Shown piece by piece: positions 44,071-58,695 of a stretch of DNA of 64,000 nucleotides. This DNA comes from Methyloversatilis discipulorum. Its GTDB lineage: Bacteria; Pseudomonadota; Gammaproteobacteria; Burkholderiales; Rhodocyclaceae. The notes beneath the pieces were generated by a model, which was not told where the DNA came from, made no database searches, and was given only the letters and a program-made list of their open reading frames with translations. Location: assembly GCF_000527135.1 (NCBI RefSeq), contig NZ_AZUP01000001.1:496001-560000 (forward strand), read 5' to 3'. The first letter of the stretch is position 1. Each line of letters starts with the position of its first letter. The position numbers were made by a program, and so were the translations under genes.

Positions 44071-44138
44071 AGGCACGACCCCGCCTATCCCTAGACCGAC
44101 CGCGCAACCCGCGCGAAAGCCGGCACCTGTAAGGCAAG

Positions 44139-44166
44139 AGGCCCGCCAAAAGCGGGCCTTCTGCTT
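44139..44166 (+). terminator. Rho-independent terminator of the symporter operon
   Basis: AGGCCCGC, loop CAAAA, GCGGGCCT followed by TCTGCTTT. It is 69 bp past the symporter stop. Confidence 0.85.
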
Positions 44167-44241
44167 TCCGGGCCACCGCATTTGCGGCGCGTCCGGGTGC
44201 GAACAAGCGGCAGGGTTTCTGATATAGTCTCGCGTCTTCGC

Positions 44242-44331
44242 GGAGAGGTGGATGAGTGGTTTAAGTCGCACGCCTGGAAAGCGTGTTTAGGTGAAAACCT
44301 AACGCGGGTTCGAATCCCGCCCTCTCCGCCA
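44242..44331 (+). tRNA. tRNA-Ser (anticodon GGA)
   Basis: 90-base class II tRNA. Acceptor GGAGAGG pairs with CCTCTCC, then discriminator G and encoded CCA. The anticodon GGA at 44276-44278 sits in the loop CTGGAAA; a long variable arm (GTTTAGGTGAAAACCTAAC) and GGTTCGAATCC T-loop are present. A TATAGT box at 44223-44228 lies 14 bases upstream. It reads UCC/UCU codons. Confidence 0.97.
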
Positions 44332-44351
44332 CTGAAAAGTCCTTTCGAATC

Positions 44352-44383
44352 AAGCGCCTGGTTATTCTTCCAGGCGCTTTTTT
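44352..44383 (+). terminator. Rho-independent terminator after tRNA-Ser
   Basis: AAGCGCCTGG, loop TTATTCTT, CCAGGCGCTT then a T-run; 20 bp after the tRNA. Confidence 0.92.
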
Positions 44384-44579
44384 CGTTTACGGTTTCCGGT
44401 TCCGGAGGCTTGCGTCGGGCGCCAGCGCCGCCTTGACCGGCCATGCGCGAATTCGCGCGCGCGTTTGCCCGGTCGTCGCCGACGCATCCCTTGCCATCGC
44501 AGATGCCGACGTCACCTGCTCAAGGTGGTGCTCACCGGTAATGCAGGTGTGTTTCCCGGGCGCGCCGCGAGGTGTCGGT

Positions 44580-44630
44580 CCACCATGACAGACGGTTTCT
44601 CATGGTGGTTGATATGACACGATCTGGTTT
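44580..44630. promoter_or_regulatory. Candidate enhancer site A (GGTGGTTG element with inverted repeat)
   Basis: CCACCATGA (44580-44588) and TCATGGTGG (44600-44608) form a 9-bp inverted repeat. GGTGGTTG begins at 44604, and a weaker TCTGGTTT stands 19 bases later, the same spacing seen in sites B and C. It lies about 175-225 bp upstream of the -24 element, the usual distance for an NtrC-class activator. Confidence 0.55.
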
Positions 44631-44804
44631 CAATCAGCCATCCGGCTGTGTACCTCGGGTGGTTTCTCCGCGGGTGACGTCGTCCTCGCGGTGCCTGTCG
44701 GCCGCGTCAGCGAGGTCTCGCCAACGTCATGTGGTGTCCGCGCGCTGCCGCCGCGGGTGACGGCGGCGCCGGTCGCCGTCGATCGCCGCACGCCGTGTGG
44801 TTCC

Positions 44805-44820
44805 GGGCGTGCTTCTTGCA
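44805..44820 (+). promoter_or_regulatory. sigma-54 promoter of the kinase/regulator operon
   Basis: GGGCGTGCTTCTTGCA: GG and GC are exactly 10 bases apart with a perfect TTGCA. It is 13/15 identical over the core to the promoter at 55207 (GGCATGCTTCCTGCA). The predicted start is near 44831, leaving a leader of only about 9 bases before the kinase ATG. Confidence 0.65.
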
Positions 44821-44839
44821 CTGTCTTCGCCGACCAACC

Positions 44840-46342
44840 ATGAGGCGTGTCCGGGCCTTGGCCAGCCATTTCGTCGGTGAAGCGCATTCCCTGAAAAGAC
44901 TGCAGCTGCGTTACGCCGCGTTCTATCTCGGCCTGCTGCTGTTTTCCGGCGCAATGGGCTGGGGCGGACTGCAGCTGTGGCAGGACGCCGCCGGCGAACG
45001 CGACCGGCTGGCCGGAATGAGCGCGGAGGTACTGGAGATGCGCGGCAGCCTCTACCGTCAGATCAAGGAGGTGTTCGACCACGCCTTTCTCGGCGATGTC
45101 GGCGCGGCGGTTGAGTTCGCGCATTACGCCGACGACATCGATCGCCACTTCGATCTCGTCTATCGGCAGGTGCGACAGCCTGAAGAACGGACAGTCGTCG
45201 ACGCGCTGCGTCTGGCTTACGAGGGCGTGCGCGGTTACGGCGAAGTGCTGCTGCGCGCGTCGCCCGACGCGGCGCGTGCCGAGAGCAGCTGGCTCGACCT
45301 GCAGCTGGAGCGTGGCGCCTTCCACGATTTCGAACAGCGGCTTGGCGAGTTCGAAAGCCAGCTGCAGCAACAGCGTCGCGCGGTCGATCGCCGGCTCGGC
45401 GTGCTGCAGGCGGTGGTGCCCTGGCTGCTCGCCTTGCCGCTGCTGCTGGCCACCGTCATCTTCATCGTGTTCCGGCGCTATCTGCGCAGCGCCGTGGCCG
45501 AGCCGCTTGCCGCCATCATGGAGGCCACCCGCAACATCAGTCGCGGGCAGCTGCAGCACCGGGTGCCGGAGCGCGGTGCGGCCGAACTGGTCAGGCTGTC
45601 GCACGCGATCAATTCGATGGCGGCCGATCTGGCGGCCAGCCGCGAAGCGCTGCTGTGTGCCGAGAAGCAGGCCACGCTTGGCGCGCTGGTGCCGGTGGTG
45701 GCGCACAACATCCGCAATCCGCTGGCCAGCATACGGGCCACCGCGCAGGTGATCGACGACGCGGCGCTGCCGGCCGACGTAAGGGAAGGGCTGGCAGGCA
45801 TCATTGCCGCCGCCGACCGCCTGGATGGGTGGACCTATTCACTGCTGTCCTACCTGCATCCGTTGCAGCCGCAGCGCGTGCCGCTGCAGGTGACGGCGCT
45901 GTTCGACACCGTCGCCCAGCTGGCGCGCGACCGCATGGAGGCACGGGAAATCCGGCTGCGGCGCATCGGCTGGGGCGAGGGCGGCATGGTCGAGCTGGAT
46001 GCCCAGCTGATGGAACAGGCGCTGCTCGGCCTGCTGATCAATGCCATCGAGGCGTCGTCGCCGGGTGGCGAAATCGTGCTGCGGCACGCCAGCGTTGGCG
46101 GCCAGGTGTCGCTGTCGGTACGCGACCACGGCAGCGGCATGAACGGCAGTCCGGCGTTGCGCGGGCTGCGGCCGGTTGCCACCACCAAGCTGCAGGGCAG
46201 CGGCCTGGGCATTCCGTTCGCCGCCAAGGTGTGCGACGTGCATGGCGGCCGGCTCGAATTCATCCATCACGACCCCGGCACCGAAGCGGTCATGGTGCTG
46301 CCATCGAAGGAAGCGCATGTTGTCGAACCCTGGAACGATTGA
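44840..46342 (+). CDS. Sensor histidine kinase paired with the sigma-54 regulator
   Basis: 500 aa. TM1 at about 25-47 and TM2 at 189-211 enclose a mainly helical periplasmic region of about 140 residues (four-helix-type sensor by look; no Cache/PAS seen). HAMP spans about 212-265. The H-box is VVAHNIRNPLASIRA with phospho-acceptor His289; ATPase motifs are GLLINAIEASS, DHGSGMN and GSGLGIPFA. The HNIRNPL form is typical of kinases paired with NtrC-class regulators. Its end overlaps the regulator start by 26 bp. The ATG at 44840 has no ribosome site and lies next to a sigma-54 promoter, so leader and start deserve checking. Confidence 0.85.
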   Translation: MRRVRALASHFVGEAHSLKRLQLRYAAFYLGLLLFSGAMGWGGLQLWQDAAGERDRLAGMSAEVLEMRGSLYRQIKEVFDHAFLGDVGAAVEFAHYADDIDRHFDLVYRQVRQPEERTVVDALRLAYEGVRGYGEVLLRASPDAARAESSWLDLQLERGAFHDFEQRLGEFESQLQQQRRAVDRRLGVLQAVVPWLLALPLLLATVIFIVFRRYLRSAVAEPLAAIMEATRNISRGQLQHRVPERGAAELVRLSHAINSMAADLAASREALLCAEKQATLGALVPVVAHNIRNPLASIRATAQVIDDAALPADVREGLAGIIAAADRLDGWTYSLLSYLHPLQPQRVPLQVTALFDTVAQLARDRMEAREIRLRRIGWGEGGMVELDAQLMEQALLGLLINAIEASSPGGEIVLRHASVGGQVSLSVRDHGSGMNGSPALRGLRPVATTKLQGSGLGIPFAAKVCDVHGGRLEFIHHDPGTEAVMVLPSKEAHVVEPWND

Positions 46343-47768
46343 CGTCGACGAAACCTTGCCGCCGGCGCCGCCCAGCGCGGCGCGCCTGCTGCTGGTCGAG
46401 GACGAGGCGCTGTTTGCGCGCGCGGTGACGCGCCGGCTCGGCAGCGCCGGCTACGCCTGCCAGCACGCGACGACGCTGCTGCAGGCGCGCGAGGCGCTGG
46501 GCGGCTTTGCGCCCGACGTGGTACTGCTCGACCTGCGTCTGCCGGACGGCCACGGCCTCGACCTGCTGGCCGAACTGAATGCCGACAATCGTGCTGCGCC
46601 GGTGGTCGTGCTGACCGCCTACGGCGAAGTCGAGGACGCGGTCAGGGCGATGAAGCTGGGGGCGGCCGACTATCTGAAGAAGCCGGTCGATCTGGAAGAG
46701 CTGCAACTGGTGGTCGAGCGCGTGCTGCGCACCGCCGGCCTGCGGCAGAAGGTGGATTACTCGCGCAGCCGCGAAAGCCATCACAGCCAGGTCAGCGAGA
46801 ACGCGCTGCTGCTCGGCGACAGCCCGGCCATGCGGGCGGCGCGCGAACAGGTGGTGGCGCTGGCCGGCCTGACCGGCAGCAGCTTCGCACCGCCGCCCAC
46901 CGTGCTCATCGTCGGCGAAACCGGTACCGGCAAGGACGTCGCGGCGCGCCTGCTGCATCGCGCCGGGCCGCTGCAGGACCGTCCCTTCGTGCAGATCGAC
47001 TGCGCCTCGCTGCCGCGCGAACTGATCGAAGCCGAATTGTTCGGCCACGAGAAGGGCGCCTACACCGGTGCCCAGGGCGCGCGCGCCGGTCTGCTCGAAG
47101 CGGCCGAGGGCGGCACCGCCTTCCTCGACGAGATCGGCGAACTGCCGCTGGACATGCAGGCCAAGCTGCTCAACGTGATCGAGCGACGCGTCGTGCGGCG
47201 CGTTGGTTCGGTGCGCGAGCGGCCGATTGCCGCGCGCTTCGTCGCCGGCACCAACCGCGACCTGCCGGCGATGATCGCCGCCGGGCAGTTCCGCGCCGAC
47301 CTCTACTACCGGCTCAACGTGGTTACGCTGACCATGCCGCCGCTGCGCGAGCGCGGCAACGACGTGACGCTGCTGGCCCGTCACTTCGCCGCACAGACGG
47401 CGCGCCGCTACGCGCTCGACCAGCCTGGCTTCGACCCGGTCGCGCTGGCGGCGCTGCAGCGCTACCACTGGCCGGGCAATGTGCGCGAACTGAAGCACCT
47501 GATCGAGCGTGCTGTGCTGCTGTGCCAGGGACGGGATATCGGCGCGGCCGACCTCGGCCTGCCGTCGGTCGGCGCCGCCGGCGCCGAGGCCGCCGCGGTG
47601 CCCTTCGCGTCGATGACGCTGGACGAGGCAGAGCGCTGGCTGATCGAACGCACGCTCGACCGCGTGCGCGGCAATGTGTCGGAGGCCGCGCGTCGGCTCG
47701 GCGTGAGCCGGATGACCTTGCGCTATCGCATCGAAAAACACGGCTTGCGCGGCGCGGTCGAGGACTGA
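46317..47768 (+). CDS. sigma-54-dependent response regulator (NtrC class)
   Basis: 483 aa. Receiver domain (about 23-140) with acidic pocket LLVEDE, phospho-acceptor Asp72 (LLDLRLPD) and Lys near 121. The AAA+ domain has Walker A GETGTGKD (200-207), the sigma-54 contact loop GAYTGA (247-252, a known variant of GAFTGA), and Walker B FLDEIGEL. The C-terminal Fis-type HTH reads NVSEAARRLGVSRMTLRYRI. It should activate -24/-12 promoters when phosphorylated by the kinase. The start overlaps the kinase gene by 26 bp. Nearby -24/-12 sites with a shared upstream element are the likely targets. Confidence 0.93.
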   Translation: MLSNPGTIDVDETLPPAPPSAARLLLVEDEALFARAVTRRLGSAGYACQHATTLLQAREALGGFAPDVVLLDLRLPDGHGLDLLAELNADNRAAPVVVLTAYGEVEDAVRAMKLGAADYLKKPVDLEELQLVVERVLRTAGLRQKVDYSRSRESHHSQVSENALLLGDSPAMRAAREQVVALAGLTGSSFAPPPTVLIVGETGTGKDVAARLLHRAGPLQDRPFVQIDCASLPRELIEAELFGHEKGAYTGAQGARAGLLEAAEGGTAFLDEIGELPLDMQAKLLNVIERRVVRRVGSVRERPIAARFVAGTNRDLPAMIAAGQFRADLYYRLNVVTLTMPPLRERGNDVTLLARHFAAQTARRYALDQPGFDPVALAALQRYHWPGNVRELKHLIERAVLLCQGRDIGAADLGLPSVGAAGAEAAAVPFASMTLDEAERWLIERTLDRVRGNVSEAARRLGVSRMTLRYRIEKHGLRGAVED

Positions 47769-47797
47769 ACGGCGCCGGCCGCAGGCCCGGAAATGAA

Positions 47798-47823
47798 AAG
47801 GGCTCCGCCCTGGCGGAGCCCTT
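47798..47823. terminator. Hairpin terminator between regulator and PEP-CTERM gene
   Basis: AAGGGCTCCGCC, loop C-T, GGCGGAGCCCTT: strong stem with short A and T tracts, serving the two converging genes. Confidence 0.8.
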
Positions 47824-47841
47824 CGTTACGCGACGGCGCGA

Positions 47842-48852
47842 TCAGCCGTGCATCTTCTTCCGCGCCTGCAGGCCGATCAGGCCGAGACCGGCAGCCAGCA
47901 TGGCCCAGGTCTGCGGTTCCGGCACCGGCGGCGTGTTGGGCATTTCGGTGAAGCCGGTGACGTCCCAGCCGATGTCGTCGAGGATGGCGTAGTCCAGTTC
48001 CGTCATATGGCGTCGCTCGCCCATGGACAGCCCCCAGGCCAGCAGCGCCAGTTGCATGCTGCCGTCGTCCAGCTCGCCCTGGATATTCGCCTGGAGGCGG
48101 GTGCTGGCGGAGAAGACCTCCTCCAGCGGCACCGCTTGCAGAATGCCGCGACTGTTGCGCACGTCGTATTCGGCCTTTGCCTTTGCGCCGTTGAAGTTGC
48201 CGACGCCATTGATCAGCGACAGCCAGCCGGTGTCGATGCCGTCGTCGGCGGCGCCCAGGATGCTGACCAGCCCTTTCAGCGTCACCGTGTAGAGATCCCA
48301 TTGCCCGGCGAAGGATTCGGTCGTGCTGACGTCGGTGTCGGCGTACCAGCTGACATTGCTGCTGTAGTTCAGCGTGCCGCCCCAGGTACCGGATTCGCTG
48401 TCCGGCCAGCCCGTCTGACCGCGCGAGAAGGCGGCGTTGCCATAGCCCATGTCGGTGGTCGTCGGCGTGAGGCCCATGCCACCTGATACGGCCGATACGG
48501 GAATCTTCTCTTCATAGTTCAGACCGCCATTGCTGTTGCTGCCGACGTAGATGCGGAGCTCCTTCGCGGCGATGTTGGCGTTCGTGACCTGCTGTCCGAC
48601 GTTCGAGCTACCGAGGGGGCCCAGATTAAGTACGACGCCATTGCCACCCGGGGTCGAGGAGATGGCTGTCAGGTCGTCGAACACCCGTGTCTCGAAGGCC
48701 TGTGCGGCCTGCTCCAGCGTCGCCCTGCGGTCGGCGGTGAAGAAGCCGCTGCTGTCGTAGCTGTAATCGAACACGATGTTCACGTAGGCGTGGGCGCTGC
48801 CGAAGGTCGATCCTAATGCGAGCGCAAGTGCCAGTCTGCGGAAGTTGTTCAA
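47842..48852 (-). CDS. PEP-CTERM matrixin-like protein, zinc motif lost (pseudo-protease 1)
   Basis: 336 aa from a TTG at 48852: AGGAGG lies exactly 7 bases upstream, and no ATG is placed as well. Signal peptide about 1-22. The fold resembles the NF038122-type PEP-CTERM metalloproteases: N-terminal FDYSYDSSG-type strand, late MGERRHMTELDYAILDDIGW. Where active members have HExxHxxG, this one has KGLVSILG (193-200), so no zinc site remains. The sorting signal VPEPQTWAMLAAGLGLIGLQ plus ARKKMHG ends the protein. It is paralogous to the gene at 55281. A sigma-54 promoter (48930) and element B (49032-49070) lie upstream. Likely a surface-anchored binding or structural protein (inference). Confidence 0.8.
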   Translation of the reverse strand: MNNFRRLALALALGSTFGSAHAYVNIVFDYSYDSSGFFTADRRATLEQAAQAFETRVFDDLTAISSTPGGNGVVLNLGPLGSSNVGQQVTNANIAAKELRIYVGSNSNGGLNYEEKIPVSAVSGGMGLTPTTTDMGYGNAAFSRGQTGWPDSESGTWGGTLNYSSNVSWYADTDVSTTESFAGQWDLYTVTLKGLVSILGAADDGIDTGWLSLINGVGNFNGAKAKAEYDVRNSRGILQAVPLEEVFSASTRLQANIQGELDDGSMQLALLAWGLSMGERRHMTELDYAILDDIGWDVTGFTEMPNTPPVPEPQTWAMLAAGLGLIGLQARKKMHG

Positions 48853-48929
48853 GGTCTGTCCTCCTGTTTGTTGGATACGTGTGCCGCGCAAGGGGTGGCT
48901 GCGCGCAGTCATGACTTCATGCGGCACAA

Positions 48930-48945
48930 CGCAAATTCCGTTCCT
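48930..48945 (-). promoter_or_regulatory. sigma-54 promoter of pseudo-protease 1
   Basis: On the minus strand AGGAACGGAATTTGCG: GG-N10-GC exact, with TTGC and one mismatch in GGCACG. The predicted start is near 48919, 67 bases before the TTG start. Confidence 0.68.
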
Positions 48946-49031
48946 TCCGCGGGAGCGAATCACCGTTGCGCTGTGCGACGCGGCCCGGCGCGCAGTGGCC
49001 GAATGCTCCGTGCGTATGGAGCCTTGCCGGC

Positions 49032-49070
49032 GGTGGTTGATGTCATGCAGGGTGGTCGATCACAACCACC
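49032..49070. promoter_or_regulatory. Candidate enhancer site B (tandem GGTGGTYG)
   Basis: GGTGGTTG at 49032 and GGTGGTCG at 49051, 19 bases apart, plus ACCACC at 49065-49070 that forms an inverted repeat with the second copy (GGTGGT-N8-ACCACC). It is 20/27 identical to site C. It lies about 90-130 bp upstream of the -24 element at 48945. Confidence 0.58.
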
Positions 49071-49089
49071 TCTGCTGACCGTCGTGTAC

Positions 49090-49881
49090 TCAGCGCCGGT
49101 GTTGTCGCGCGCTGGCGATCAGCAGTGGCAGGGCGCCCAGCCAGAGCAGTGCGGGCGCCGGTTCGGGCACCGGGCTGGCACTCCAGAGGGCGCTCTGGCC
49201 GGCGGTCGCCATCGTGCTGTCCAGCCATGCGCGGTAGGCGCCGGGCTGCACGAAATAGGAAAGCTGCCCGTCGCTGGCGGAGGCGATGCCGATCAGCAGG
49301 CCGCTGCTGTCGTCGGCCTGGCCGGCGAACAGCGAACCGCCGCTGTCGCCGCCCTGCAGCAGCACGTTGCCGTTGGAGGCGGGGCCGACTGCGATATACC
49401 AGACGGTCAATTGCGCACCGTCGTCGTCGACAGCAGTTTCGAAGGCATCGACCAGCGTGGTGTAGGCAAGGCTGTTCTGTCCGCTGCGCGCCGCAACCAC
49501 CGCCGTCGCCTCGGCACCGGCCGGTGCGGCGGCGAAGTCGATCACGGTCGCGTTGAGGGTCGGGAAGAGCGGGGCGTCGAGCGGTGTGTCGAGGTGGAGC
49601 AGGGCGATGTCATGGCTCGGGAAGGCGGCGCCGGGCGCGACGTAGGCGGCGTCGATGGTGGCGCTGCCGTAGGCTGACTGGAAGGTGGTGCCGCTGTGCG
49701 CGACATGGGCCGCGGTCAGCACCCAGTTCGGCGCGATCAGGATGCCGTCCAGGCCGTTGCTGCCGACCGTGCCAAGGTGGCTGAAGGCGTTCGTAGGGCT
49801 GCCGCCGTTGAGGGCGTACGAAGGCGCCGCCAGCAACAGGGCGGCGGAGAGAGCGAGCGCATGCAGCAGGGATCGGTACAT
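49090..49881 (-). CDS. Trypsin-like serine protease with PEP-CTERM anchor
   Basis: 263 aa. Signal peptide about 1-23. The S1 triad is complete: His59 (LTAAHV), Asp91 (SHDIALLHL), Ser179 (QGGDSGGSLF). The C-terminus PVPEPAPALLWLGALPLLIA then SARQHRR is a PEP-CTERM sorting signal, so the enzyme is probably exported and processed by an exosortase. GAGGCC precedes the ATG at 49881. It sits between the pseudo-protease and the two paralogs on the same strand; no sigma-54 site was found directly before it. It may process neighbouring surface proteins (inference). Confidence 0.85.
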   Translation of the reverse strand: MYRSLLHALALSAALLLAAPSYALNGGSPTNAFSHLGTVGSNGLDGILIAPNWVLTAAHVAHSGTTFQSAYGSATIDAAYVAPGAAFPSHDIALLHLDTPLDAPLFPTLNATVIDFAAAPAGAEATAVVAARSGQNSLAYTTLVDAFETAVDDDGAQLTVWYIAVGPASNGNVLLQGGDSGGSLFAGQADDSSGLLIGIASASDGQLSYFVQPGAYRAWLDSTMATAGQSALWSASPVPEPAPALLWLGALPLLIASARQHRR

Positions 49882-49924
49882 CGTGGCCTCGGGTTGAGTG
49901 TGCGAAGGGCGTGTGGCTGCAAAG

Positions 49925-49963
49925 CAAAAAACCGGCCGCCGCCGCGGCGGGCGCGGCGACCGG
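49925..49963 (-). terminator. Rho-independent terminator after the paralog pair
   Basis: On the minus strand CCGGTCGCCGC pairs with GCGGCGGCGGCCGG and is followed by TTTTTT. It ends the 51660-49973 unit and separates it from the trypsin-like gene. Confidence 0.8.
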
Positions 49964-49972
49964 ACGTTGCGC

Positions 49973-50794
49973 TCAGCGCATGCGACGGCGTGCAGCGAAG
50001 CCGAGGACGCCGAGGCCGGCCAGGAACATTGCGTACTCGGACGGCTCCGGCACCGGCGCCAGTGCCGACGCCGCGAGGCGGGCGCTGGCATAGGTCGGCA
50101 CATAGCCCGACACTAAGATCGAGTACTCAGTCTGGTCTTCCTCGCCGCCTTCCAGCAGGCGGATGGCTTCTTCGCCCGTCGTCCAGCCGTTGGCGCCGGT
50201 GATCTTGACCCAGTACCAGGCCGAGGTGCCCGGGCTGCTGCCATCCGGGTCGTCCACGTTTACGTCGGTCTCGAAGCGCACCCAGTCGGCGTCGTAGGTA
50301 CCGATGCCGGGCTCGTTCATGCCTTCGGCCGAGCGGCCGATCGAGCGCGCGTATTCGTCTGTGACCGGCCCGGTGATATCGACCTTGGAATAGCCGCCCT
50401 GCACGCTCGTCGCGCTGGCAAAGCCGCTGCGGAAGGCGTCGTTCACTTCGAAGCTGAAGCCAGTCGAATCCCACACGCTGGCATTCATGTCCAGCCGCAT
50501 GCCGAAGATGTAGGTGCCGGCGCCGTCGCCGTACACACGGTCGGACAGGCTGCCGACCGTCGTGGTGCCGGCGGTCAGCGTGCGCGTGGTGCTGGTGAGC
50601 AGACTGAAGCCGGAGGTCGCGGTGGACACCGAGCCAGCACCGCAGGCGACGCTGGTCGAGTTGCCGGTGCCGCTGTCGCCGCACACCTGCATGATGGTGC
50701 CGGTCGATGGCAGCGACACGAAGGCGGCGTGCGAGGGGGCGGCGACGCCGGCCAGGGCGAGTGCGCCGGCGGCGCAGATCAGGCGATGTTTCAT
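49973..50794 (-). CDS. PEP-CTERM protein of unknown family (paralog 1)
   Basis: 273 aa. Signal peptide about 1-23 (APSHA). The middle has no known domain. The C-terminus APVPEPSEYAMFLAGLGVLG then FAARRRMR is a sorting signal. It aligns along most of its length with the protein upstream at 50905-51660: shared DRVY/DRVW, TYIF/TYVF, FEVNDAFRSGF/FEVDDIFRYGF, GMNE/GLNE and a SAWYWVKITG/TAWYYVRTTA region followed by EAIRL/NAIRL, and SGYVPT/SGFVPT. AAGGAG precedes the ATG. It begins 110 bp after the other paralog and should be co-transcribed with it. Cysteines at about 37 and 51 may form a disulfide. Confidence 0.78.
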   Translation of the reverse strand: MKHRLICAAGALALAGVAAPSHAAFVSLPSTGTIMQVCGDSGTGNSTSVACGAGSVSTATSGFSLLTSTTRTLTAGTTTVGSLSDRVYGDGAGTYIFGMRLDMNASVWDSTGFSFEVNDAFRSGFASATSVQGGYSKVDITGPVTDEYARSIGRSAEGMNEPGIGTYDADWVRFETDVNVDDPDGSSPGTSAWYWVKITGANGWTTGEEAIRLLEGGEEDQTEYSILVSGYVPTYASARLAASALAPVPEPSEYAMFLAGLGVLGFAARRRMR

Positions 50795-50904
50795 GGTGCT
50801 CTCCTTGAGTGGACAGGCTGTTGAAACGGGAACCGGATGGCCCCGATACGCTGATTTCTGTTGCGATGGAGGCCGACGGCAATGCCGCCGGCTGCGATCT
50901 GCGC

Positions 50905-51660
50905 TCAGTGGGTCGGCACGAAGCCGCTGAACCACAGCGAGGTCTGCTCCTGACCCTCGCTTTCGCCGGCGTTCCACAGCCGGATCGCGTTGGCGTTCAG
51001 CTGGTAGCCGCTGGCGGTGGTGCGGACGTAGTACCAGGCGGTGCGCACCTTGCCGGGCGAGCCGGTGTCGAGGGTTTCGTCCTCGTCCTCGCCGCCGGCG
51101 ACCTCTTCCTCATCGTCGTCGTCATCGCCGCCGCCTTCTTCCGGGATCTGGACGAAGAGCGGCGAGAAGAAGTCGACCACGCCGAGGTCGAAGGTCTTTT
51201 CGCCTTCGTTCAGGCCGACGCTGGTGCGGCCGACCTGGTCGATCGCCTGGTCACTGACCCGCGCATTGCGCCAGCCGGCCGCCAGCGAGGCGCTGCCGGA
51301 GAAGCCGTAGCGGAAGATGTCATCGACTTCGAACGGGTAGCCGGTGCCCCAGTCGCTGTCGTTCAGGATGACGCGGGTGGCGAACACGTAGGTGTTGGAA
51401 AAGGGCTTCTTCCACACCCGGTCGAGCACCTTGCCCACCGTCACCGCGTTCACGACGATGTTGGTGCGCCGAGCGTTCAGCAGCAGATAGCCGCCGGGGT
51501 TGGAGCCGGGCCATGCGCTGGTGCGGCAGGTGGGCGTCGGGTTGCACGAGGTCATGACCAGTGCGCCGGACATGTTCAGCGTGACGAAATCGGCCATCGC
51601 CGGTGCGGACAGCGCACCGCAGGCGACCAGCAGTGCACCGGACAGCAAGGTTCTTCGCAT
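50905..51660 (-). CDS. Exported protein of unknown family (paralog 2, no anchor, acidic tract)
   Basis: 251 aa. Signal peptide about 1-23 (APAMA). Same family as paralog 1, but it stops at SGFVPTH, exactly where paralog 1 goes on into its PEP-CTERM signal. A very acidic tract (about 174-196, almost all Asp/Glu/Gly) is inserted where paralog 1 has VNVDDPDGSSPG; it may bind calcium. AGGAGG lies 7 bases before the ATG. Probably a soluble, secreted counterpart of the anchored paralog (inference). No database family comes to mind. Confidence 0.75.
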   Translation of the reverse strand: MRRTLLSGALLVACGALSAPAMADFVTLNMSGALVMTSCNPTPTCRTSAWPGSNPGGYLLLNARRTNIVVNAVTVGKVLDRVWKKPFSNTYVFATRVILNDSDWGTGYPFEVDDIFRYGFSGSASLAAGWRNARVSDQAIDQVGRTSVGLNEGEKTFDLGVVDFFSPLFVQIPEEGGGDDDDDEEEVAGGEDEDETLDTGSPGKVRTAWYYVRTTASGYQLNANAIRLWNAGESEGQEQTSLWFSGFVPTH

Positions 51661-51816
51661 CGTTATTCCTCCTGACGAGACATGGGCCGGCGGCGCGGTC
51701 TGCCCGCCGGATCGGTGTCCGCTGCCTGCCGGAACCGCGACCGGCTCCGCCCTTCCCGTTGGCATGGACTTATGCAGACTAGGAGGTGAAACGCGATTCC
51801 TTCAGGGATATATGCC

Positions 51817-51830
51817 CCCAAGTGCTTGGG
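51817..51830. promoter_or_regulatory. Palindrome upstream of the paralog pair
   Basis: CCCAAGTGCTTGGG: perfect 6-bp arms around TG, in the 296-bp gap before paralog 2, beside an AT-rich stretch (51836-51885) that could be a promoter. Possible operator; no family assigned. Confidence 0.35.
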
Positions 51831-51956
51831 ATGTTTTCACTTTGAAAAATATTGCAAAACAATGACTTGTATATGATCTTGTACGGGCGTGCAAAGCCCT
51901 CCCCGGTATGCAGGGATGCTGCCCGTGTGACCTCGTCACGCGCGAAAGGAGTGGCC

Positions 51957-54866
51957 CTAGAGGTCCAGTCGATAGCTCATGCCCAGCCACACGGCGCGCG
52001 GTGCGCCCGGTGCGACCATGGTGGTGTTCAGCCAGTCGGCCGAGTTGTAGTTCCAGCCGCTTTCACCGATGGCGCCGTTCACGCTGGGCGCGAAGGGCGT
52101 GACGCCCAGGCGGCCGGCGGTGAAGTAGTCCTTGTCGAGCAGGTTGTTGATCTGCAGCAGCGCCGTCCATCGACGATCGATCCTGTAGGTGGTCGTCAGG
52201 TTGAAGATGGCGTAGCCCGGCAGCTTGCCGCCGTAGCGGAAGGCGCGGCCGGGTGGCGTAAGTCCCTGCGTGAGGACGGTGCAAGCAGGTGGGTTGCCGC
52301 AGCTGAAGGTGCCGATTTCCTTGTCGGTGCCGCCGGTTTCATGGTCGTTGTTCTCGTTGCCACGCAGGAAGGACGGCGAGTGCGCGACCATGCCCAGCTT
52401 GAAATGCAGCTTTTCGGTCGCCTGGTAGCCCAGCGTGAGGTTCATGTTGTGCTTCGACACGCCGGGCAGCGTGTCGCCGGGTTCGACGTGGATCATCCGG
52501 TAGGTGCCGTAGCCGCTGTTCAGCGATGCCCCGGGGCCGGGGAGGGGGGCGTTGGGCCGCGAGTTCCGGTCGAAGTCCGCGCTGCTGTTGTGCGGGCTGT
52601 TCATGTAGAAATCGGATTCGAAGGTCGCTTCGGTGTAGGCGTAATTGACGCGGAAGTCGAACTTGTCGAGCTTGCCATTCACGCCCATTTCGAGACCCTG
52701 GCGGCGGGTGTTGCCTATGGTGTCGAAGTAGCTGCGGCTGGGCGACACGCCGATCATGTAGATGTCGTTGCTCAGATCGGTGCGGAAGGCGGTGATGTTC
52801 CAGCCTATGCCATTGTCCAGCGTGCCGCGGGCGCCGATCTCGTAGGAGTGCGAACGGATCTGCGGCAGGAAGGGGTCGCCCGACATCGTGTTCGGCAGAT
52901 GGCAGACCGGCGCCACGGTGGCCGCCGGTATTTCGAAGCCACCGCGGATCACCGTCGAGCGGTCGATGGCGCAGCCGAGTTCGATCACCGACGGCACGCG
53001 TGCCCCGCGGCTGTAGTTGGCGAACAGGTTCACGTTCTCGCTCGGCAGCCAGCTCACACCGGCGGACGGGTTGAACGAGCGATAGACGTGCTTCTCCCGC
53101 TTTTCCGCGCGGGCCACGTCGGCCGGGTCGTAGGAAATCCACTCCGGGAAGTAGTGACACTCGTCCGGGTAGTTGCCCCAGCACAGGATGGAGCTCTGTG
53201 CTGGCGGCGCGTTGTTCAGCTCGGTCAGTTCTCCGGTCGATGAACGGCCGCGCAGCCAGTTGTTCACCTTGGTCACGTTGTAGCGGGCGGCGAACGACAG
53301 ATGCAGGTCGTCGCGCGGCGTCCATGTTTCGCTCAGGTAGAAACTGCGCGTTTTCGAACTGCCGCCGAAGTCGTTCACCTCGACCTCGTTGTGCGCGGCG
53401 TAAAACCGCGGATCGATCTGACCCGGCCCGTAGCCGACACTGCCGTAATAGAAGTGGCGGTCGGCGTCGAGCAGGCCGAGGCGCTGGCTGCTGTAGTAAG
53501 TGGTGTCGCTGCGGTCGAGCGATGCGCCCACCATGAACTTGTGGCGCTCGAAGTTCCAGTTCAGCTGCAGCGACATGCCCTGGCCGGCCTGGTCCAGCGC
53601 GGTGCGCGTGCCGACCGCGATCGGCGTGCCGTTCACTACGCCCGGCCCGGCTGTATTGTTGGCGGCACCGTTGGCGCCATTGCGCACCTGCCCGAAATTG
53701 GAGTTGACGGGTGCTGCGTCACACGGCGCGTTCAGCGGAATGTTGTTGTCGGCGAAGTAGTCCTCGTCCAGGTCGGCATAGGCGCAGTAGCGGTTGTATT
53801 GCGCGGTCACCGAGCGGCGGTCGTCCAGTTCCTCGAAACCTTCCTCGTCGATGTCGCCGTTGAAGCCCGAGCGCTCGCTGTTGCGCCGGTAGCTCATCGC
53901 GGTGATGTTGAAGCTCTCCGACACCTCGAACATGGCCGACCACTGGTACTGGTTCAGTTCGTTCTTCGTTTCGTCGGGCGAACTGAACACCGATTCCGGC
54001 CGGCGCTGGTAGTCCTCCAGCGGGATGAGGCCGTTGCCGACGAGGTCGGTGTCGACCTTGAGCATCGAGAAACCCAGCAGCAGGCGGTCGATGGCGATCT
54101 CGTTCTTGACGAAGAGCTGGCGCAGCGCGCTCGGCGAGTTGTCGCGCCAGCCGTCCTCGGCGAAGCCGTGCAGCGCGACGAAGCCGGCGACCGGCCCCTT
54201 GCTGCCACCGGCCGACAGCTGCACCTGGTTGCGCCCCCACGAGCCGCCGAGATACTTCGCCTCGACGCCGGGGTCGGTGAAGCCGCTCTTGGTGCGCATC
54301 GACAGCGCGCCGCCCAGCGTGTTGAGGCCGAACAGCGGATTCGAGCCCGGGAACACGTCGAAGCGCGACAGTGCGTTCATCGGGATCATGTCCCAGTTCA
54401 CGACGTCGCCGAAGGGCTCGTTCATGCGGATGCCGTCGAGGAAGACCGACAGCCCCTGCGGCGTGCCAACCTGCGGGCCGGCGGTGAAGCCGCGGAACTG
54501 CACGTCGACCTGGAAGGGGTTGCCCTGGTAGTCGTTGACGGTGACCGACTGCATCTGCGAATTCATCAGATCGGTCAGCGACAGGCTGTTGCTGTCGCGG
54601 ATGTCCTTTGCCGTGATGCTCTGGACATTGGACGGGATTTCCTCCCGCGTCAGTCCGAGGCCGGGCATCGGACCGATGTCCTGCGGCCGCCGTTCGCGGA
54701 TCAGGATGGGGTCGAGAATGATGGCGTCTGCCCCGGGTTCGGGTTCGGCTGCCGGCGCCGGCGGCCCTGCGACCTCGTCGGGGCTCTCGGTCGGCGCCTG
54801 TGCCTGAGCGGCGTCGATGCAGAGCGCGGCCAGGCAGTACGCCGCGATACGCAGATTGAATTGCAA
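51957..54866 (-). CDS. TonB-dependent outer-membrane receptor
   Basis: 969 aa. Signal peptide about 1-22, then an acidic/Pro-rich linker, plug domain (about 75-200: SNVQSITAKDIRDSNSLSL; GTPQGLSVFLDGIRMNEPFG) and a large beta-barrel ending WLGMSYRLDL. No STN signalling domain, so no FecA-type sigma relay. GGAGGAGGAG precedes the ATG. Its substrate is unknown: no siderophore, cobalamin or sugar genes are near. It is the largest gene of the PEP-CTERM island and is divergent from pseudo-protease 2, with sigma-54 promoters facing both ways and element C between. The shared control suggests that receptor and surface proteins work together (inference). Confidence 0.9.
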   Translation of the reverse strand: MQFNLRIAAYCLAALCIDAAQAQAPTESPDEVAGPPAPAAEPEPGADAIILDPILIRERRPQDIGPMPGLGLTREEIPSNVQSITAKDIRDSNSLSLTDLMNSQMQSVTVNDYQGNPFQVDVQFRGFTAGPQVGTPQGLSVFLDGIRMNEPFGDVVNWDMIPMNALSRFDVFPGSNPLFGLNTLGGALSMRTKSGFTDPGVEAKYLGGSWGRNQVQLSAGGSKGPVAGFVALHGFAEDGWRDNSPSALRQLFVKNEIAIDRLLLGFSMLKVDTDLVGNGLIPLEDYQRRPESVFSSPDETKNELNQYQWSAMFEVSESFNITAMSYRRNSERSGFNGDIDEEGFEELDDRRSVTAQYNRYCAYADLDEDYFADNNIPLNAPCDAAPVNSNFGQVRNGANGAANNTAGPGVVNGTPIAVGTRTALDQAGQGMSLQLNWNFERHKFMVGASLDRSDTTYYSSQRLGLLDADRHFYYGSVGYGPGQIDPRFYAAHNEVEVNDFGGSSKTRSFYLSETWTPRDDLHLSFAARYNVTKVNNWLRGRSSTGELTELNNAPPAQSSILCWGNYPDECHYFPEWISYDPADVARAEKREKHVYRSFNPSAGVSWLPSENVNLFANYSRGARVPSVIELGCAIDRSTVIRGGFEIPAATVAPVCHLPNTMSGDPFLPQIRSHSYEIGARGTLDNGIGWNITAFRTDLSNDIYMIGVSPSRSYFDTIGNTRRQGLEMGVNGKLDKFDFRVNYAYTEATFESDFYMNSPHNSSADFDRNSRPNAPLPGPGASLNSGYGTYRMIHVEPGDTLPGVSKHNMNLTLGYQATEKLHFKLGMVAHSPSFLRGNENNDHETGGTDKEIGTFSCGNPPACTVLTQGLTPPGRAFRYGGKLPGYAIFNLTTTYRIDRRWTALLQINNLLDKDYFTAGRLGVTPFAPSVNGAIGESGWNYNSADWLNTTMVAPGAPRAVWLGMSYRLDL

Positions 54867-54992
54867 CGGCTCCTCCTCCTGGCAGGCGCGGTGACCTGCT
54901 GCGAACGCCCTCGCCAGCCGGCGGGACGTTTTCCTTGTGTGCAGCCCGGCAGCGTCCGCGTGCGGGCGGGTCTGCCGGGGCTGGAGGCCAGA

Positions 54993-55008
54993 AGCAAGGG
55001 CGGGGCCA
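54993..55008 (-). promoter_or_regulatory. sigma-54 promoter of the TonB receptor gene
   Basis: On the minus strand TGGCCCCGCCCTTGCT: TGGC, GG-N10-GC spacing and TTGCT all fit the consensus. The predicted start is near 54982, 116 bases before the ATG. Confidence 0.7.
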
Positions 55009-55070
55009 GTTGCGCCGACGACGGCGCGACCGCTGCCTTTGCGCGTGAGGCAGCTTCCGGGCGCGATTGT

Positions 55071-55097
55071 GGTGGTTGAAATGCACCAGGGTGGTTG
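55071..55097. promoter_or_regulatory. Candidate enhancer site C (tandem GGTGGTTG)
   Basis: GGTGGTTG at 55071 and again at 55090, 19 bases apart, both in the same orientation. It is 20/27 identical to site B, with both ends best kept. It lies 63 bp before the receptor -24 element and 110 bp before that of pseudo-protease 2, so one bound activator could serve both. Confidence 0.6.
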
Positions 55098-55206
55098 TTT
55101 GCCTTCGTCATGACCGGTGACGCATCGGGCATGTCACACCGGGCGGGCGGGAATGCGTCGCCGGTTTGTGGGGAAGGCAGCGCCGGGGGATCGACTCCCG
55201 GTCAGT

Positions 55207-55222
55207 CGGCATGCTTCCTGCA
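55207..55222 (+). promoter_or_regulatory. sigma-54 promoter of pseudo-protease 2
   Basis: CGGCATGCTTCCTGCA: exact GG-N10-GC spacing; 13/15 identical over the core to the kinase-operon promoter. The predicted start is near 55233, 48 bases before the ATG. Confidence 0.65.
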
Positions 55223-55280
55223 GACAGTCAGACCACGGCGGCTGCATCGCCGCACAACATTCACAGACAGGAGGATGGAC

Positions 55281-56279
55281 ATGCGACCCGTATTCAAGGC
55301 GCTGGCCGGTGTGCTGGCGTCGATGACGCTGGCTGGTGGCGCGCAGGCCAATATCGAATTCGTGTTCGACTACAGCCGTGATGGCAACGGCGTCATGACG
55401 AACGAAATGAAGGCGTTGCTCGAACAGGCGGCCGGCACGATAGAGGCGAGCATTTCCGACCAGCTGAGTGCGATCGCGCCGCAGGGCGACTTCGCGCCCA
55501 GCATATTCTTCACGCCGCCGGACACCGGCACCTCGTCGCGGGCGGTCGATACCATCGGTGCCAACCAGATCTATGTGTACGTCGGCGGGCGCTCTGCGCT
55601 CGGCGCGCCACACCTGGCGCTCAGCGGCGCCGTGCGCAACGCTACGCGGCCGGCTTCGGTGCCGGCGAACGACCCCGCCTTCCTCGCTTACCGCGACGAA
55701 CTGCGCAGCCGCGGCCAACCTGGCGCCATCGCCTCGACGCCGACCGACTATTCACCCTGGGGCGGCTCGCTCGCCTTCGACAGCGAAGCCAGCTTCTACG
55801 TCGACGACGACATCTCGACGCTGGAGTCCTTCGAGGGCCAGTACGACTTCTACACCGTCGCGCTGCGCGGTCTGCTCGGCATCCTGGGGTACGGCGTCGG
55901 CGGTGCGGGCACCCCGGTGGCGTCCTACCACGCCAATGTCGACAGCGAGAACCTCACCTTCGTCGGCGCCAACGCACTGGCCGAGTACGGCGAGGGCGTG
56001 CCGGTGTACTACCGTTACGATGAGGAAAACGATCAGGAAATCATCGACGAGCGCTTCCTCGACGACAGCGTGGTCAGCACCGTCAATGGCGTGGCGCAGA
56101 CCGCGTTGATGACGCAGACGCTGAATACCGGCGAGCGCCGTGCGCTCACCGCACTCGATTACGCCATCCTGCGCGACATCGGCTGGCAGGCAGCGCCAGT
56201 GCCGGAACCGGCTGAGTACGCGATGTTCCTCGCCGGGCTGGGTGTGCTGGCGGCGGTGGCGCGCCGGCGCAGGGCCTGA
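55281..56279 (+). CDS. PEP-CTERM matrixin-like protein, zinc motif lost (pseudo-protease 2)
   Basis: 332 aa. AGGAGG is 6 bases before the ATG at 55281; an ATG at 55275 touches that site and is less likely. Signal peptide about 1-23. It is paralogous to the 47842 gene: FDYSRDGNG near the start, SFEGQYDFYTVALRGL, and TGERRALTALDYAILRDIGW near the end. The HExxHxxG position reads RGLLGILG (196-203), so catalysis is not expected. Both copies have lost His, Glu and His, keeping only the flanking Leu/Gly pattern. The C-terminus is VPEPAEYAMFLAGLGVLAAV then ARRRRA. A pair of acidic runs (YRYDEENDQEIIDERFLDD) marks the region before the last motif. Confidence 0.82.
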   Translation: MRPVFKALAGVLASMTLAGGAQANIEFVFDYSRDGNGVMTNEMKALLEQAAGTIEASISDQLSAIAPQGDFAPSIFFTPPDTGTSSRAVDTIGANQIYVYVGGRSALGAPHLALSGAVRNATRPASVPANDPAFLAYRDELRSRGQPGAIASTPTDYSPWGGSLAFDSEASFYVDDDISTLESFEGQYDFYTVALRGLLGILGYGVGGAGTPVASYHANVDSENLTFVGANALAEYGEGVPVYYRYDEENDQEIIDERFLDDSVVSTVNGVAQTALMTQTLNTGERRALTALDYAILRDIGWQAAPVPEPAEYAMFLAGLGVLAAVARRRRA

Positions 56280-56295
56280 GACGCCCGCCGGAATG

Positions 56296-56326
56296 AAAAT
56301 GGCCTGCTCGCGCAGGCCATTTTTTT
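56296..56326. terminator. Bidirectional rho-independent terminator
   Basis: AAAATGGCCTGC, loop TCGC, GCAGGCCATTTTTTT between pseudo-protease 2 and the converging transglycosylase gene. Confidence 0.92.
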
Positions 56327-56344
56327 GTCCGTCAGCGGCTTCGC

Positions 56345-56938
56345 TTACTGCAGCGAGCGGTAGTTGTGCATCACTTGCGGCACGTAGCGCTGCGTCTCGG
56401 CGTAGGGCGGAATGCGCCCGCCGTACTTCTGCACCGCGCCCTCTCCGGCGTTGTAGGCGGCCAGCGCCAGTTCGAGCTGGCCGTCGAAGCGGGCCAGCAG
56501 GTCGCGCAGATAGAGCGCGCCGCCGAGCACGTTCTGGTCGGGGTCGAAACGGTCCGCCACGCCATAGCGGCGGGCGGTGGCCGGCATCAGCTGCATCAGA
56601 CCGGCTGCGCCCTTGGGTGACACCGCCTTCGGGTTGTACGCCGATTCGGCACGGATGACCGCGTGCAGCAGACTGGCGTCGACGCCGGCCGCGCGTGCGG
56701 CGCGTTCGATCCGTGGCGCGTGCAGCCGGGCCGACGGATGTTCGGCACGCGCCGCCACCGGCGCAGCGGCAGCGTCACGCTCGCTGCGCAGCAGCAGCTC
56801 GAAGCCTTCACCGCCCGGCGCGTCGGTCAGCACCAGCGCGCCGTCGGCGTCTTCCTTCACATAGACGTCGGCCTGCGCCACGACGGCCCACAGCAGCGCG
56901 AGCAGCAGGAAAACGGATCGGGTGGTCGTTGAAGTCAT
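56345..56938 (-). CDS. Lytic transglycosylase (SLT domain)
   Basis: 197 aa. Signal peptide about 1-23. The SLT domain (about 85-197) has the catalytic Glu in LHAVIRAESAYNPKAVSP, then GLMQLMPATARRYGV and LALAAYNAGEGAVQKYGG. The N-terminal DVYVKEDADGALVLTD resembles a DUF4124-type segment. It cleaves peptidoglycan and may make room for envelope machines such as the neighbouring secretion system (inference). The ATG at 56938 is chosen because a signal peptide begins there. Confidence 0.87.
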   Translation of the reverse strand: MTSTTTRSVFLLLALLWAVVAQADVYVKEDADGALVLTDAPGGEGFELLLRSERDAAAAPVAARAEHPSARLHAPRIERAARAAGVDASLLHAVIRAESAYNPKAVSPKGAAGLMQLMPATARRYGVADRFDPDQNVLGGALYLRDLLARFDGQLELALAAYNAGEGAVQKYGGRIPPYAETQRYVPQVMHNYRSLQ

Positions 56939-57080
56939 CTGCAGGAAATACGCGGGCGATAGAGTTGCGGGTATTGCAAGCATGCTGCGGAATGTTTTCA
57001 GCGATATTGAAATAAAGCGGAAAGCATCGGCCTTGTTTGCTTGATGCGGTCGATGCACGGCGACTAGACTCGATACGATC

Positions 57081-57515
57081 ATGACACGTCACATTACGGC
57101 TATGAACCGGATTTCTCAACGCGGCTTTACCTTGCTCGAACTGCTGGTGGTGATGGTCATCATCGGCCTGCTGGCCGGATACGTCGGCCCGCGCTTCTTC
57201 AGCCAGATCGGCAAGTCCGAGGTCAAGGCGGCGCGCGCGCAGATCGACGCGCTGGAAAAGGCGCTCGACCAGTTCCGCCTCGACAACGGGCGCTACCCGA
57301 CCACCGAAGAGGGCCTGAAGGCACTGGTCGAGCGTCCATCGACGACCAGCAAGTGGTCGGGCCCCTATCTGAAGAAGGCGGTTCCGCTCGACCCGTGGGA
57401 GCGCCCCTATATATATAAGGCACCTGGCGAACACGGTGAATTCGATCTGAGCTCGCTCGGCAAGGACGGCCAGGCAGGTGGCACCGAAGAAGCCGCCGAC
57501 ATCACGAACTGGTGA
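57081..57515 (+). CDS. gspG: Type II secretion major pseudopilin GspG
   Basis: 144 aa from 57081; an ATG at 57102 would give 137 aa and a shorter leader (MNRISQRG) closer to the usual length, and neither has a strong ribosome site. RG/FTLLELLVVMVIIGLLAG has Glu+5. NGRYPTTEEGLKALVE, WSGPYLKKAVPLDPWERPYI and the C-terminal EFDLSSLGKDGQAGG are classic GspG, including the calcium loop. A TTGATG/TAGACT pair (57040-57069) may be its sigma-70 promoter. It opens a secretion operon that runs to the end of the window. Confidence 0.93.
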   Translation: MTRHITAMNRISQRGFTLLELLVVMVIIGLLAGYVGPRFFSQIGKSEVKAARAQIDALEKALDQFRLDNGRYPTTEEGLKALVERPSTTSKWSGPYLKKAVPLDPWERPYIYKAPGEHGEFDLSSLGKDGQAGGTEEAADITNW

Positions 57516-57516
57516 C

Positions 57517-58695
57517 ATGCTTTTCCGCATCCGCGCACTCGACGTCACCAATCGCATCACGCAGCTGCAGGTCGAAGCGTCCGACGAAGCGTCGGCACGC
57601 GCACAGGTCCAGGCCGACGGCCTGACCGTGCTGTCGGCCTCGCGTGCGCACACGCTGTCGTTCAACCGGCAGCGCTTTCCGGTGCTGCTGTTTTGCCAGG
57701 AATTGCTGGCACTGCTGCGCTCCGGCCTGTCGCTGGTCGAAGGTCTTGAGGTGATGGCCGAGAAGGAGGGGCGCACGCTGTCGCGCACCGTGCTGAGCGC
57801 GCTGATCGACGCGTTGCGCCAGGGCAAGACGCTGTCGATGGCGATGTCCGCCCAGACCGCCATCTTTCCCGACCTGCTGGTGGCAATGATCCGTGCGTCC
57901 GAACGCACCAGCGACCTCGACCAGGCACTCGAACGCTACGTCGCCTACAGCGAACAGCTCGACAGCCTGCGCGGCAAGCTGGTGGCAGCGGCCACCTATC
58001 CGGTCATCCTGCTGGTGGTGGGCATGCTGGTGGTGCTTTTCCTGCTGGTGTTCGTGGTGCCGGAGTTCTCGAAAGTGTATGAAGACATTTCCACCGAACT
58101 GCCGCTGGCGTCACAGTGGCTGCTTGCCTGGGGCCATTTCGTCAAGGCGCATTCGGCCTCGCTCGGGCTGGGCCTGCTCGTCGTGGTGATCGGTGTCGTG
58201 TGGACGGTGCGTCAGCCGGCCTTCCGTCAGGGGCTGATGGCGCAGTTCGAGCGGGTGCCCGGTATCGGCAGCCGGATGCGCGTGTTCCGCCTTGCGCGCT
58301 TCTTCCGCACGGTGGGCATGCTGCTGCGCGGTGGCATTCCGGTCGTGCAGTCGCTCGAACTGGTGCGCGAACTGCTGCCGCTGCCGATGCAGCAGAGTCT
58401 GACGCGCGCGCTGCTGTCGATACGCGAGGGCCGCGCGGCGTCGGACGCCTTCACCGAAGTCGGCCTGAGCACCGCCGTGGCGTCGCGCATGCTGCGCGTC
58501 GGCGAACGGGCAGGCAACCTGGGCGACATGATGGAACGCATCGCCGCCTTCCACGACGAGGAAATGACGCGCTGGCTCGACCGCGCGACCCGGCTGTTCG
58601 GTCCGCTGCTGATGCTGGTGATCGGTCTGGCCATCGGCGGCGTCGTCGTGCTGATGTACCTGCCCATCTTCCAGCTGGCGGAGAGCCTGCAATGA
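57517..58695 (+). CDS. gspF: Type II secretion platform protein GspF
   Basis: 392 aa. Two GspF/PilC domains (about 65-190 and 268-390), each with FFRTVGMLLRGG-like or CQELLALLRSGLSLVEGLEV motifs, and three membrane segments (about 165-185, 215-235, 370-390). It starts 1 bp after gspG and its stop overlaps the gspE start (ATGA). It anchors the ATPase to the inner membrane. Confidence 0.92.
   Translation: MLFRIRALDVTNRITQLQVEASDEASARAQVQADGLTVLSASRAHTLSFNRQRFPVLLFCQELLALLRSGLSLVEGLEVMAEKEGRTLSRTVLSALIDALRQGKTLSMAMSAQTAIFPDLLVAMIRASERTSDLDQALERYVAYSEQLDSLRGKLVAAATYPVILLVVGMLVVLFLLVFVVPEFSKVYEDISTELPLASQWLLAWGHFVKAHSASLGLGLLVVVIGVVWTVRQPAFRQGLMAQFERVPGIGSRMRVFRLARFFRTVGMLLRGGIPVVQSLELVRELLPLPMQQSLTRALLSIREGRAASDAFTEVGLSTAVASRMLRVGERAGNLGDMMERIAAFHDEEMTRWLDRATRLFGPLLMLVIGLAIGGVVVLMYLPIFQLAESLQ

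Follow-up and report, generated by a model that had tools for sequence, protein, structure and literature searches.

The window analysed here is a 64,000-nucleotide stretch of Methyloversatilis discipulorum (contig NZ_AZUP01000001.1, positions 496,001 to 560,000), a methanol-using bacterium whose genome is a single contig of 4,306,529 bases. It carries a surface-protein island in which a two-component pair probably controls its own operon and neighbouring genes through sigma-54 promoters. The first gene of the pair encodes a membrane sensor histidine kinase with HAMP, HisKA and HATPase domains (44840..46342, + strand, start codon uncertain), and the second encodes an NtrC-type response regulator (46317..47768, +) with a receiver, a sigma-54 AAA+ domain and a Fis-type helix-turn-helix (HTH). 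The regulator scored over the cut-offs of PF00072, PF00158 and PF02954 and contained the GAYTGA motif, which assigns it to the NtrC family by domain content. The genes that bear on the proposed regulon are pep1 (47842..48852, -), a TonB-dependent outer-membrane receptor (51957..54866, -; PF00593 146.9 bits, PF07715 62.3 bits) and pep2 (55281..56279, +). The order of kinase, regulator, pep1, trypsin-like gene, pep3, p4, TonB receptor and pep2 was the same in five relatives, and the flanks of the island varied among some of them. The surface proteins pep1, pep2 and pep3 possessed PF07589 tails of 29.2, 26.7 and 31.2 bits, respectively (Pfam cut-off 20.7), and with an exosortase in the genome they belong to the PEP-CTERM proteins. 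Exosortase-family (EpsH) genes were found in all 13 genus genomes. The paralogs pep1 and pep2 (about 36%) had been called pseudo-proteases in the initial annotation. This name was not retained, as both matched PEP-CTERM families only, over the C-terminal end, and the structure model of pep2 (AlphaFold mean pLDDT 43.2) was too poor for a fold search.

Three operators were located in the island. Operator A (44604..44642, +) stands upstream of the kinase-regulator operon, operator B (49032..49070, +) upstream of pep1, and operator C (55071..55109, +) is common to the divergent TonB receptor and pep2 genes. Their E values with R1, a profile of 14 operator sites from the host genome, the relatives G001, G002 and G005, and L061, were 3.2e-5, 2.4e-6 and 4.4e-5, respectively, and a site aligned with A was present in the five relatives. 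The operator is about 39 bp long and consists of two 16-bp palindromes TGGYTGANNTCARCCA, with centres 19 bp apart and GG/CC at the outer ends. When the upstream regions of the five island-bearing relatives were aligned, the kept pattern was roughly GGTGGYTGAWATNNANCANNNTGGTTSAWWTNAACCACC. The element had been described initially as a tandem GGTGGTTG, and GGTGGTYG was indeed present at A, B and C on the + strand (44604, 49032, 49051, 55071 and 55090). The 19-base period claimed for it was exact at B and C (0 mismatches), whereas the second copy at A, TCTGGTTT, had 3 mismatches. Furthermore, a reverse copy at 49063 (-), overlooked initially, makes B a dyad, and the comparison of relatives indicated that the dyad design holds for A and C too. 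The tandem GGTGGTYG was therefore rejected as the true element, and the operator is a pair of palindromes larger than first described. The four half-sites were not all kept at every site: the right arm of C was poor in the host genome, and site B of G002 was shorter by one base. A fourth operator was present in G001 between the TonB receptor and p4 (L053 9136-9174). It was followed by a 10/12 sigma-54 promoter and then by a reading frame of 11 codons, apparently what is left of a target gene since lost.

Single copies of GGTGGTYG mean little, because the window holds 29 of them where 5.5 would be expected. The exact arrangement GGTGGTYG-N11-GGTGGTYG occurred at two places only in the whole genome, B and C. 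At one mismatch, three more places were found, all inside long open frames (the translation was checked for L003). A genome-wide search with R1, in the manner proposed in the initial annotation, gave sites below E 0.1 in the island only, which were kept in the relatives with the kinase: R1, taken on the better strand, found A, B and C, and the next place (E 0.10) lay within a gene. Six of the 13 genus genomes (host, G010, G003, G001, G005 and G002) encoded the kinase at an identity of at least 70%, and the other seven lacked it, with best matches of at most 34%. In searches that scored the best 82-150 of about 500-2500 candidates per genome, the R1 sites at E ≤ 0.01 numbered 3, 3, 3, 4, 3 and 3 in these six genomes, respectively, all within the island, and among the seven kinase-less genomes four had no match at E 1 and three had best values of 0.09, 0.53 and 0.56. 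The presence patterns of kinase and operator matched in 13 of 13 genus genomes (chance 1 in 1716 if independent, a figure that assumes more than holds for related genomes). Moreover, among 81 family genomes (the host, two of the same genus and 78 of other genera), R1 at E 0.01 found sites only in the host and G005, both island carriers; the kinase, sought in 12 of those 78 other-genus genomes, gave partial matches at most (36%). Only the palindrome pair, unlike the single palindrome, is restricted to the island. A single palindrome with one mismatch at genome position 2398340, present in G010 and G003 too, was rejected as a fourth site: it overlaps the last codons and the stop of a gene, has no partner palindrome and was unlisted by R1 at E 1. 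It is probably a chance occurrence.

The four -24/-12 elements reported initially, with exact GG-N10-GC spacing, were all found. They precede the kinase-regulator operon (GGGCGTGCTTCTTGCA, 44805..44820, +), pep1 (AGGAACGGAATTTGCG, 48930..48945, -), the TonB receptor (TGGCCCCGCCCTTGCT, 54993..55008, -) and pep2 (CGGCATGCTTCCTGCA, 55207..55222, +), with 9, 9, 10 and 9 of 12 consensus bases, respectively. The reported sharing of 13 of 15 core bases was found between the kinase and pep2 elements. The sigma-54 consensus used for ranking was TGGCACG-N4-TTGCW, and GG-N10-GC alone is a weak signal in a G+C-rich genome. All GG-N10-GC elements were ranked by consensus agreement in the operator-to-start-codon intervals of the four genes in six genomes, with some start codons of relatives estimated from alignment ends. 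All 24 intervals contained an element that agreed with the consensus at 8-10 of 12 bases, 50-162 bp from the operator end. The kinase element was the top candidate (8-10/12) in all six genomes, and those of pep1, the TonB receptor and pep2 reached 9-10/12 in all six. The best match was reached in less than 10% of 500 base shuffles for 23 of the 24 intervals, and the largest shuffle P (0.134) belonged to the kinase interval of G005. The values in the host genome were 0.08 for the kinase, 0.026 for pep1, 0.004 for the TonB receptor and 0.04 for pep2. Each promoter is modest evidence in the host genome alone, and the case is carried by the conservation in five relatives. The gene rpoN was found in 13 of 13 genus genomes, and the regulator of all six genomes with the kinase kept the receiver Asp and GAYTGA, with an HTH that was nearly identical. 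Sigma-54 control fits the island, because the operators lie at enhancer distance and the activator domain is intact. A regulator that binds the operators and partly represses, or that acts independently of sigma-54, is highly improbable, given the intact activator domain and the -24/-12 elements in every operator-gene interval.

The control of PEP-CTERM genes has been studied in other bacteria. According to the excerpted text of Haft 2006 (PMC1569441), the sigma-54 response regulator PrsR has PEP-CTERM genes as its proposed targets, its motif 1 ends in TTTACA about 63 nt before a -24/-12 element, and further regulators and DNA motifs of PEP-CTERM genes were still to be found. In addition, the excerpt of another study describes, in a different genus, a PEP-CTERM gene that depends on rpoN (PMC9850573). 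The island is similar to the PrsK/PrsR regulon in its two-component sigma-54 control of PEP-CTERM genes, its upstream activator motif and its -24/-12 element, and the pair might on that account be PrsK/PrsR itself. This is hardly credible and is already contradicted by the scores: the regulator reached 359.1 bits against PrsR (TIGR02915, cut-off 502.6) and the kinase 44.5 bits against PrsK (TIGR02916, cut-off 300). A separate true PrsR (721.7 bits) is encoded at genome position 3757528, PrsR was over its cut-off in each of the 13 genus genomes, including the seven without operators, and TTTACA was absent on both strands of regions A, B and C of the host and the five relatives. The island system thus differs from PrsK/PrsR in its protein families by NCBIfam cut-offs, its operator and its confinement to one island, and its relatives in other organisms are linked to genes of pyrroloquinoline quinone (PQQ). 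It resembled the NtrC-family regulons in the receiver-AAA+-Fis order, the sigma-54 promoters and the palindromic enhancer sites. The best NCBIfam match was AtoSC, from which the system differs in its own operator and targets and in a regulator score (389 bits) below the AtoC cut-off of 714. Among the titles and abstract openings of open-licence literature on PEP-CTERM, PrsR, PqqU and the regulation of pqqA, PQQ or xoxF, the system was not recognised, and no paper was found in the open-licence literature on Methyloversatilis with PEP-CTERM. The control system seems not yet named.

A single search of GTDB genome contigs, made with an alignment of the kinase, collected the relatives of the pair and gave 80 loci of 102 matches; 76 outside loci remained when the four Methyloversatilis loci were set aside. 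The outside loci carry titles of Beta-, Alpha- and Gammaproteobacteria, with identities of 32-48% for the kinase and 46-61% for the regulator, and kinase and regulator stood in tandem at 75 of the 76. In the flanks of the pair, searched over 400 bp ahead of the kinase and 600 bp behind the regulator, the palindrome was found at 34 outside loci with at most 2 mismatches (shuffled mean 1.75) and at 16 with at most 1 (shuffled 0), and pairs spaced 19-23 bp were found at 14; these counts are not independent, because the outside loci are related to one another. The palindrome-bearing gammaproteobacterial regulator L128 matched the window regulator at 509 bits and its next best at 295 bits, and it is therefore an ortholog, not a general NtrC relative, a comparison made for L128 alone among the outside regulators. 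The window pair shows the three marks by which the PQQ-linked kinase-regulator family is defined in this analysis, namely tandem pair, reciprocal best regulator and adjoining palindrome, the last found at 34 of the 76 outside loci only. The initial expectation, sites in the island and its orthologs and nowhere else, was borne out in the genus and family genomes searched. The system as a whole is wider than the island, as the regulator family and the palindrome recur in loci of other classes, many of them with PQQ genes. It might be argued that another sigma-54 activator of the genome binds the operators and that the neighbouring pair is a passenger, as 21 further genome places match a relative of the regulator over more than 200 residues. 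This is very unlikely, given that sites and kinase share one pattern of presence and absence in the 13 genus genomes and that the palindrome adjoins the pair in distant classes. The metagenome-assembled genome titles of L061, L112 and L124 (Bordetella parapertussis or Klebsiella pneumoniae) seem doubtful.

The preferred explanation is a sigma-54 regulon in which the neighbouring regulator binds A, B and C and activates its own operon, pep1, the TonB receptor and pep2. Judged from sequence comparison, its probability is roughly 85%. The neighbouring kinase would phosphorylate the NtrC-type regulator as the trigger, and the regulator would then bind the two-palindrome operator. With sigma-54 RNA polymerase, it would activate the kinase-regulator operon through A, which amounts to autoregulation, as well as pep1 through B and the divergent TonB receptor and pep2 genes through C. 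The core proposal of the initial annotation is well supported by the genome comparison, with corrections in three ways.

Several observations weigh against this explanation. The R1 searches scored a part of the candidates in each genome, the R1 matches in the host, G001, G002 and G005 were by construction, as these genomes supplied training sites, and G010 and G003 are near-identical to the host genome. The informative part is therefore the absence of sites elsewhere. The single palindrome with at most 1 mismatch occurred at 12 places in the host genome (3 for the reversed-pattern control), only 1 of which belongs to the island; the genus genomes had 3-15 such places each, with or without the kinase. 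Another genome of the same order, G040, possessed the pair with a kinase of 47% identity and showed no recognisable operator at its locus. At 42 of the 76 outside loci, among them all 13 titled Methylophaga (L134 without upstream sequence), the palindrome was not found at 2 mismatches or fewer. Some single promoters were no better than shuffle P 0.08-0.13. Moreover, the trypsin-like gene, pep3 and p4 lacked an operator in the host genome. The regulon consequently covers four transcription units and not the whole island, and of the initial claim that the regulator controls its own operon and the island, the part that stands is the operator and promoter sets at these four units.

The three genes without an assigned operator lie between pep1 and the TonB receptor. 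The trypsin-like protein (49090..49881, -; PF00089 46.6 bits) had a VPEP C-terminal tail. A 9/12 promoter-like element stood 41 bp before its start, overlapping a T-run, and may be only a terminator T-run. The PEP-CTERM protein pep3 (49973..50794, -; PF07589 and NF038126) was FxDxF-like. Its secreted paralog p4 (50905..51660, -; about 30%) had an acidic stretch and no PEP-CTERM tail, and its structure model (mean pLDDT 55.0) was also too poor for a fold search. The acidic run DDDDDEEE of p4, absent from pep3, suggests possible calcium or metal binding. The upstream gap of pep3 lacked a GG-N10-GC element, and neither p4 nor pep3 showed a conserved sigma-54 element. An AT-rich block before p4 (51780-51870; TTTTGCAATATTTTTCAAAGTGA) was alike in several relatives. 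In G005 this block reads TTTTACA, which recalls the PrsR motif, and p4 and pep3 may therefore answer to PrsR.

The relatives of the pair are frequently found beside PQQ genes. At L120, L131, L102, L093 and L111, an operator, a sigma-54-like promoter and a 24-codon gene were present between the kinase and its upstream neighbour; at L119, promoter and gene were present and the operator was absent within 3 mismatches. The peptide common to L120, L131 and L111 matched PqqA (PF08042 39.5 bits, cut-off 21.1; TIGR02107 45.9, cut-off 20), and the other pqqA genes were identified by peptide pattern. By this pattern pqqA occurred at 22 of the 76 outside loci; at 19 loci, 20 peptides were encoded divergently to the kinase, no more than 500 bp away. 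A strict GG-N10-GC element with 8-11 bases was found within about 210 bp of pqqA at 13 loci (at L097, pqqA is elsewhere in the locus), and seven loci (L108, L114, L125, L126, L128, L132 and L136) had only a variant there, with the -12 GC changed. The Methylophaga loci carried a PQQ dehydrogenase and a MoxJ-like binding protein, and the alphaproteobacterial loci carried PQQ-alcohol-oxidation transporter-set genes (representatives L091 and L079, respectively, extended by BLAST clusters). At least one PQQ-related marker was present at 52 of the 76 outside loci, a fraction that stands without a matched rate from other kinase loci. The excerpted text of PMC12997753 describes Pseudomonas AgmR and PedS2-PedR2, which are similar in the two-component control of PQQ-dependent oxidation genes and are LuxR-type, unlike the NtrC-type island system with sigma-54; the same excerpt lists CbrB, a response regulator that depends on sigma-54, outside the Pseudomonas PQQ-oxidation cluster.

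The host genome possessed four pqqA copies (953294, 1140015, 1158593 and 4154588) and at least 12 PQQ-dehydrogenase loci. Hairpin-like repeats followed the scattered pqqA copies; three of the peptides were identical, and one had one residue changed. Operators at these genes were considered and rejected: the 16 loci with 1.5-kb flanks had neither a paired operator nor a palindrome with at most 1 mismatch, and three of them (L148, L151 and L156) had the palindrome at 2 mismatches. The Methyloversatilis regulon is therefore not one of PQQ synthesis.

A candidate small RNA was seen at six loci (L064, L066, L069, L074, L076 and L082), about 30-115 bp past the regulator stop, and at L068 at 1.1 kb. 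At these places a sigma-54-like promoter (10-11/12) was followed by a non-coding stretch of about 95 nt with a CTCCTATTGTG-like core, which is anti-Shine-Dalgarno-like, and by a terminator hairpin with compensatory changes. The operator palindrome came next in 6 of the 7. Rfam gave no match on six loci, five of these seven among them.

The nearest solved structures to the island TonB receptor were 6v81 (E 2.3e-13) and 9c4o (E 4.5e-13), that is, PqqU/YncD. PqqU is a TonB-dependent PQQ importer in which the aromatic Y99 stacks PQQ and arginines stand at 304 and 365 (PMC12124388). Although PqqU/YncD were its nearest structural relatives, the island receptor had Val at the position of Y99, the positions of Arg 304 and 365 fell outside the alignment, and its score against the PqqU model was 65.9, far under the cut-off of 1200. 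The identification as PqqU was rejected on the Val at Y99. A TonB receptor of the same BLAST cluster occurred in 14 of the 80 family loci, a number that includes 10 from other genera, and a palindrome lay between regulator and receptor at L061, L070 and L129. The operator-linked receptor of L061 was rejected as an ortholog of the island receptor: its best match in the host genome was a receptor at 4074243 (569.6 bits), and its best segment against the island receptor reached 225.9 bits. The links of the family suggest PQQ-dependent alcohol oxidation as the setting of the island. It is only a guess that the island receptor takes up PQQ, a metal or some other co-substrate for the oxidation of alcohols, because the L061 receptor matches another receptor and the one PqqU residue within the alignment is not kept.

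As for the surroundings, type II secretion genes (F, E and M-like) stood directly past the island at 57478-62128, and an acetyl-CoA synthetase, a CBS/DUF294 protein, a sodium:solute symporter and tRNA-Ser stood upstream. An Rfam scan of 43800-57200 gave tRNA-Ser alone over its cut-off. No plasmid record carried the island, and three matched 1-2% of it, within the regulator.

Three parts are new: the operator, a second control route for PEP-CTERM genes and the family tie to pqqA. The chances seem evenly balanced that the family is an old sigma-54 system of PQQ-linked alcohol oxidation spanning three classes of Proteobacteria. It would switch on the PQQ precursor gene pqqA in many gammaproteobacteria, stand beside PQQ dehydrogenase or alcohol-oxidation genes in Methylophaga and the alphaproteobacteria, and may act on a small RNA in Ferrovum-like bacteria. 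Methyloversatilis would have re-tasked it to a TonB receptor and PEP-CTERM proteins, which could collect a metal or cofactor that serves the same chemistry. For PEP-CTERM surface proteins beyond the PrsK/PrsR system, the analysis supplies a defined operator, a target list and a probable regulator. Moreover, with this operator type beside gammaproteobacterial pqqA, sigma-54 control of PQQ supply becomes testable in several organisms.

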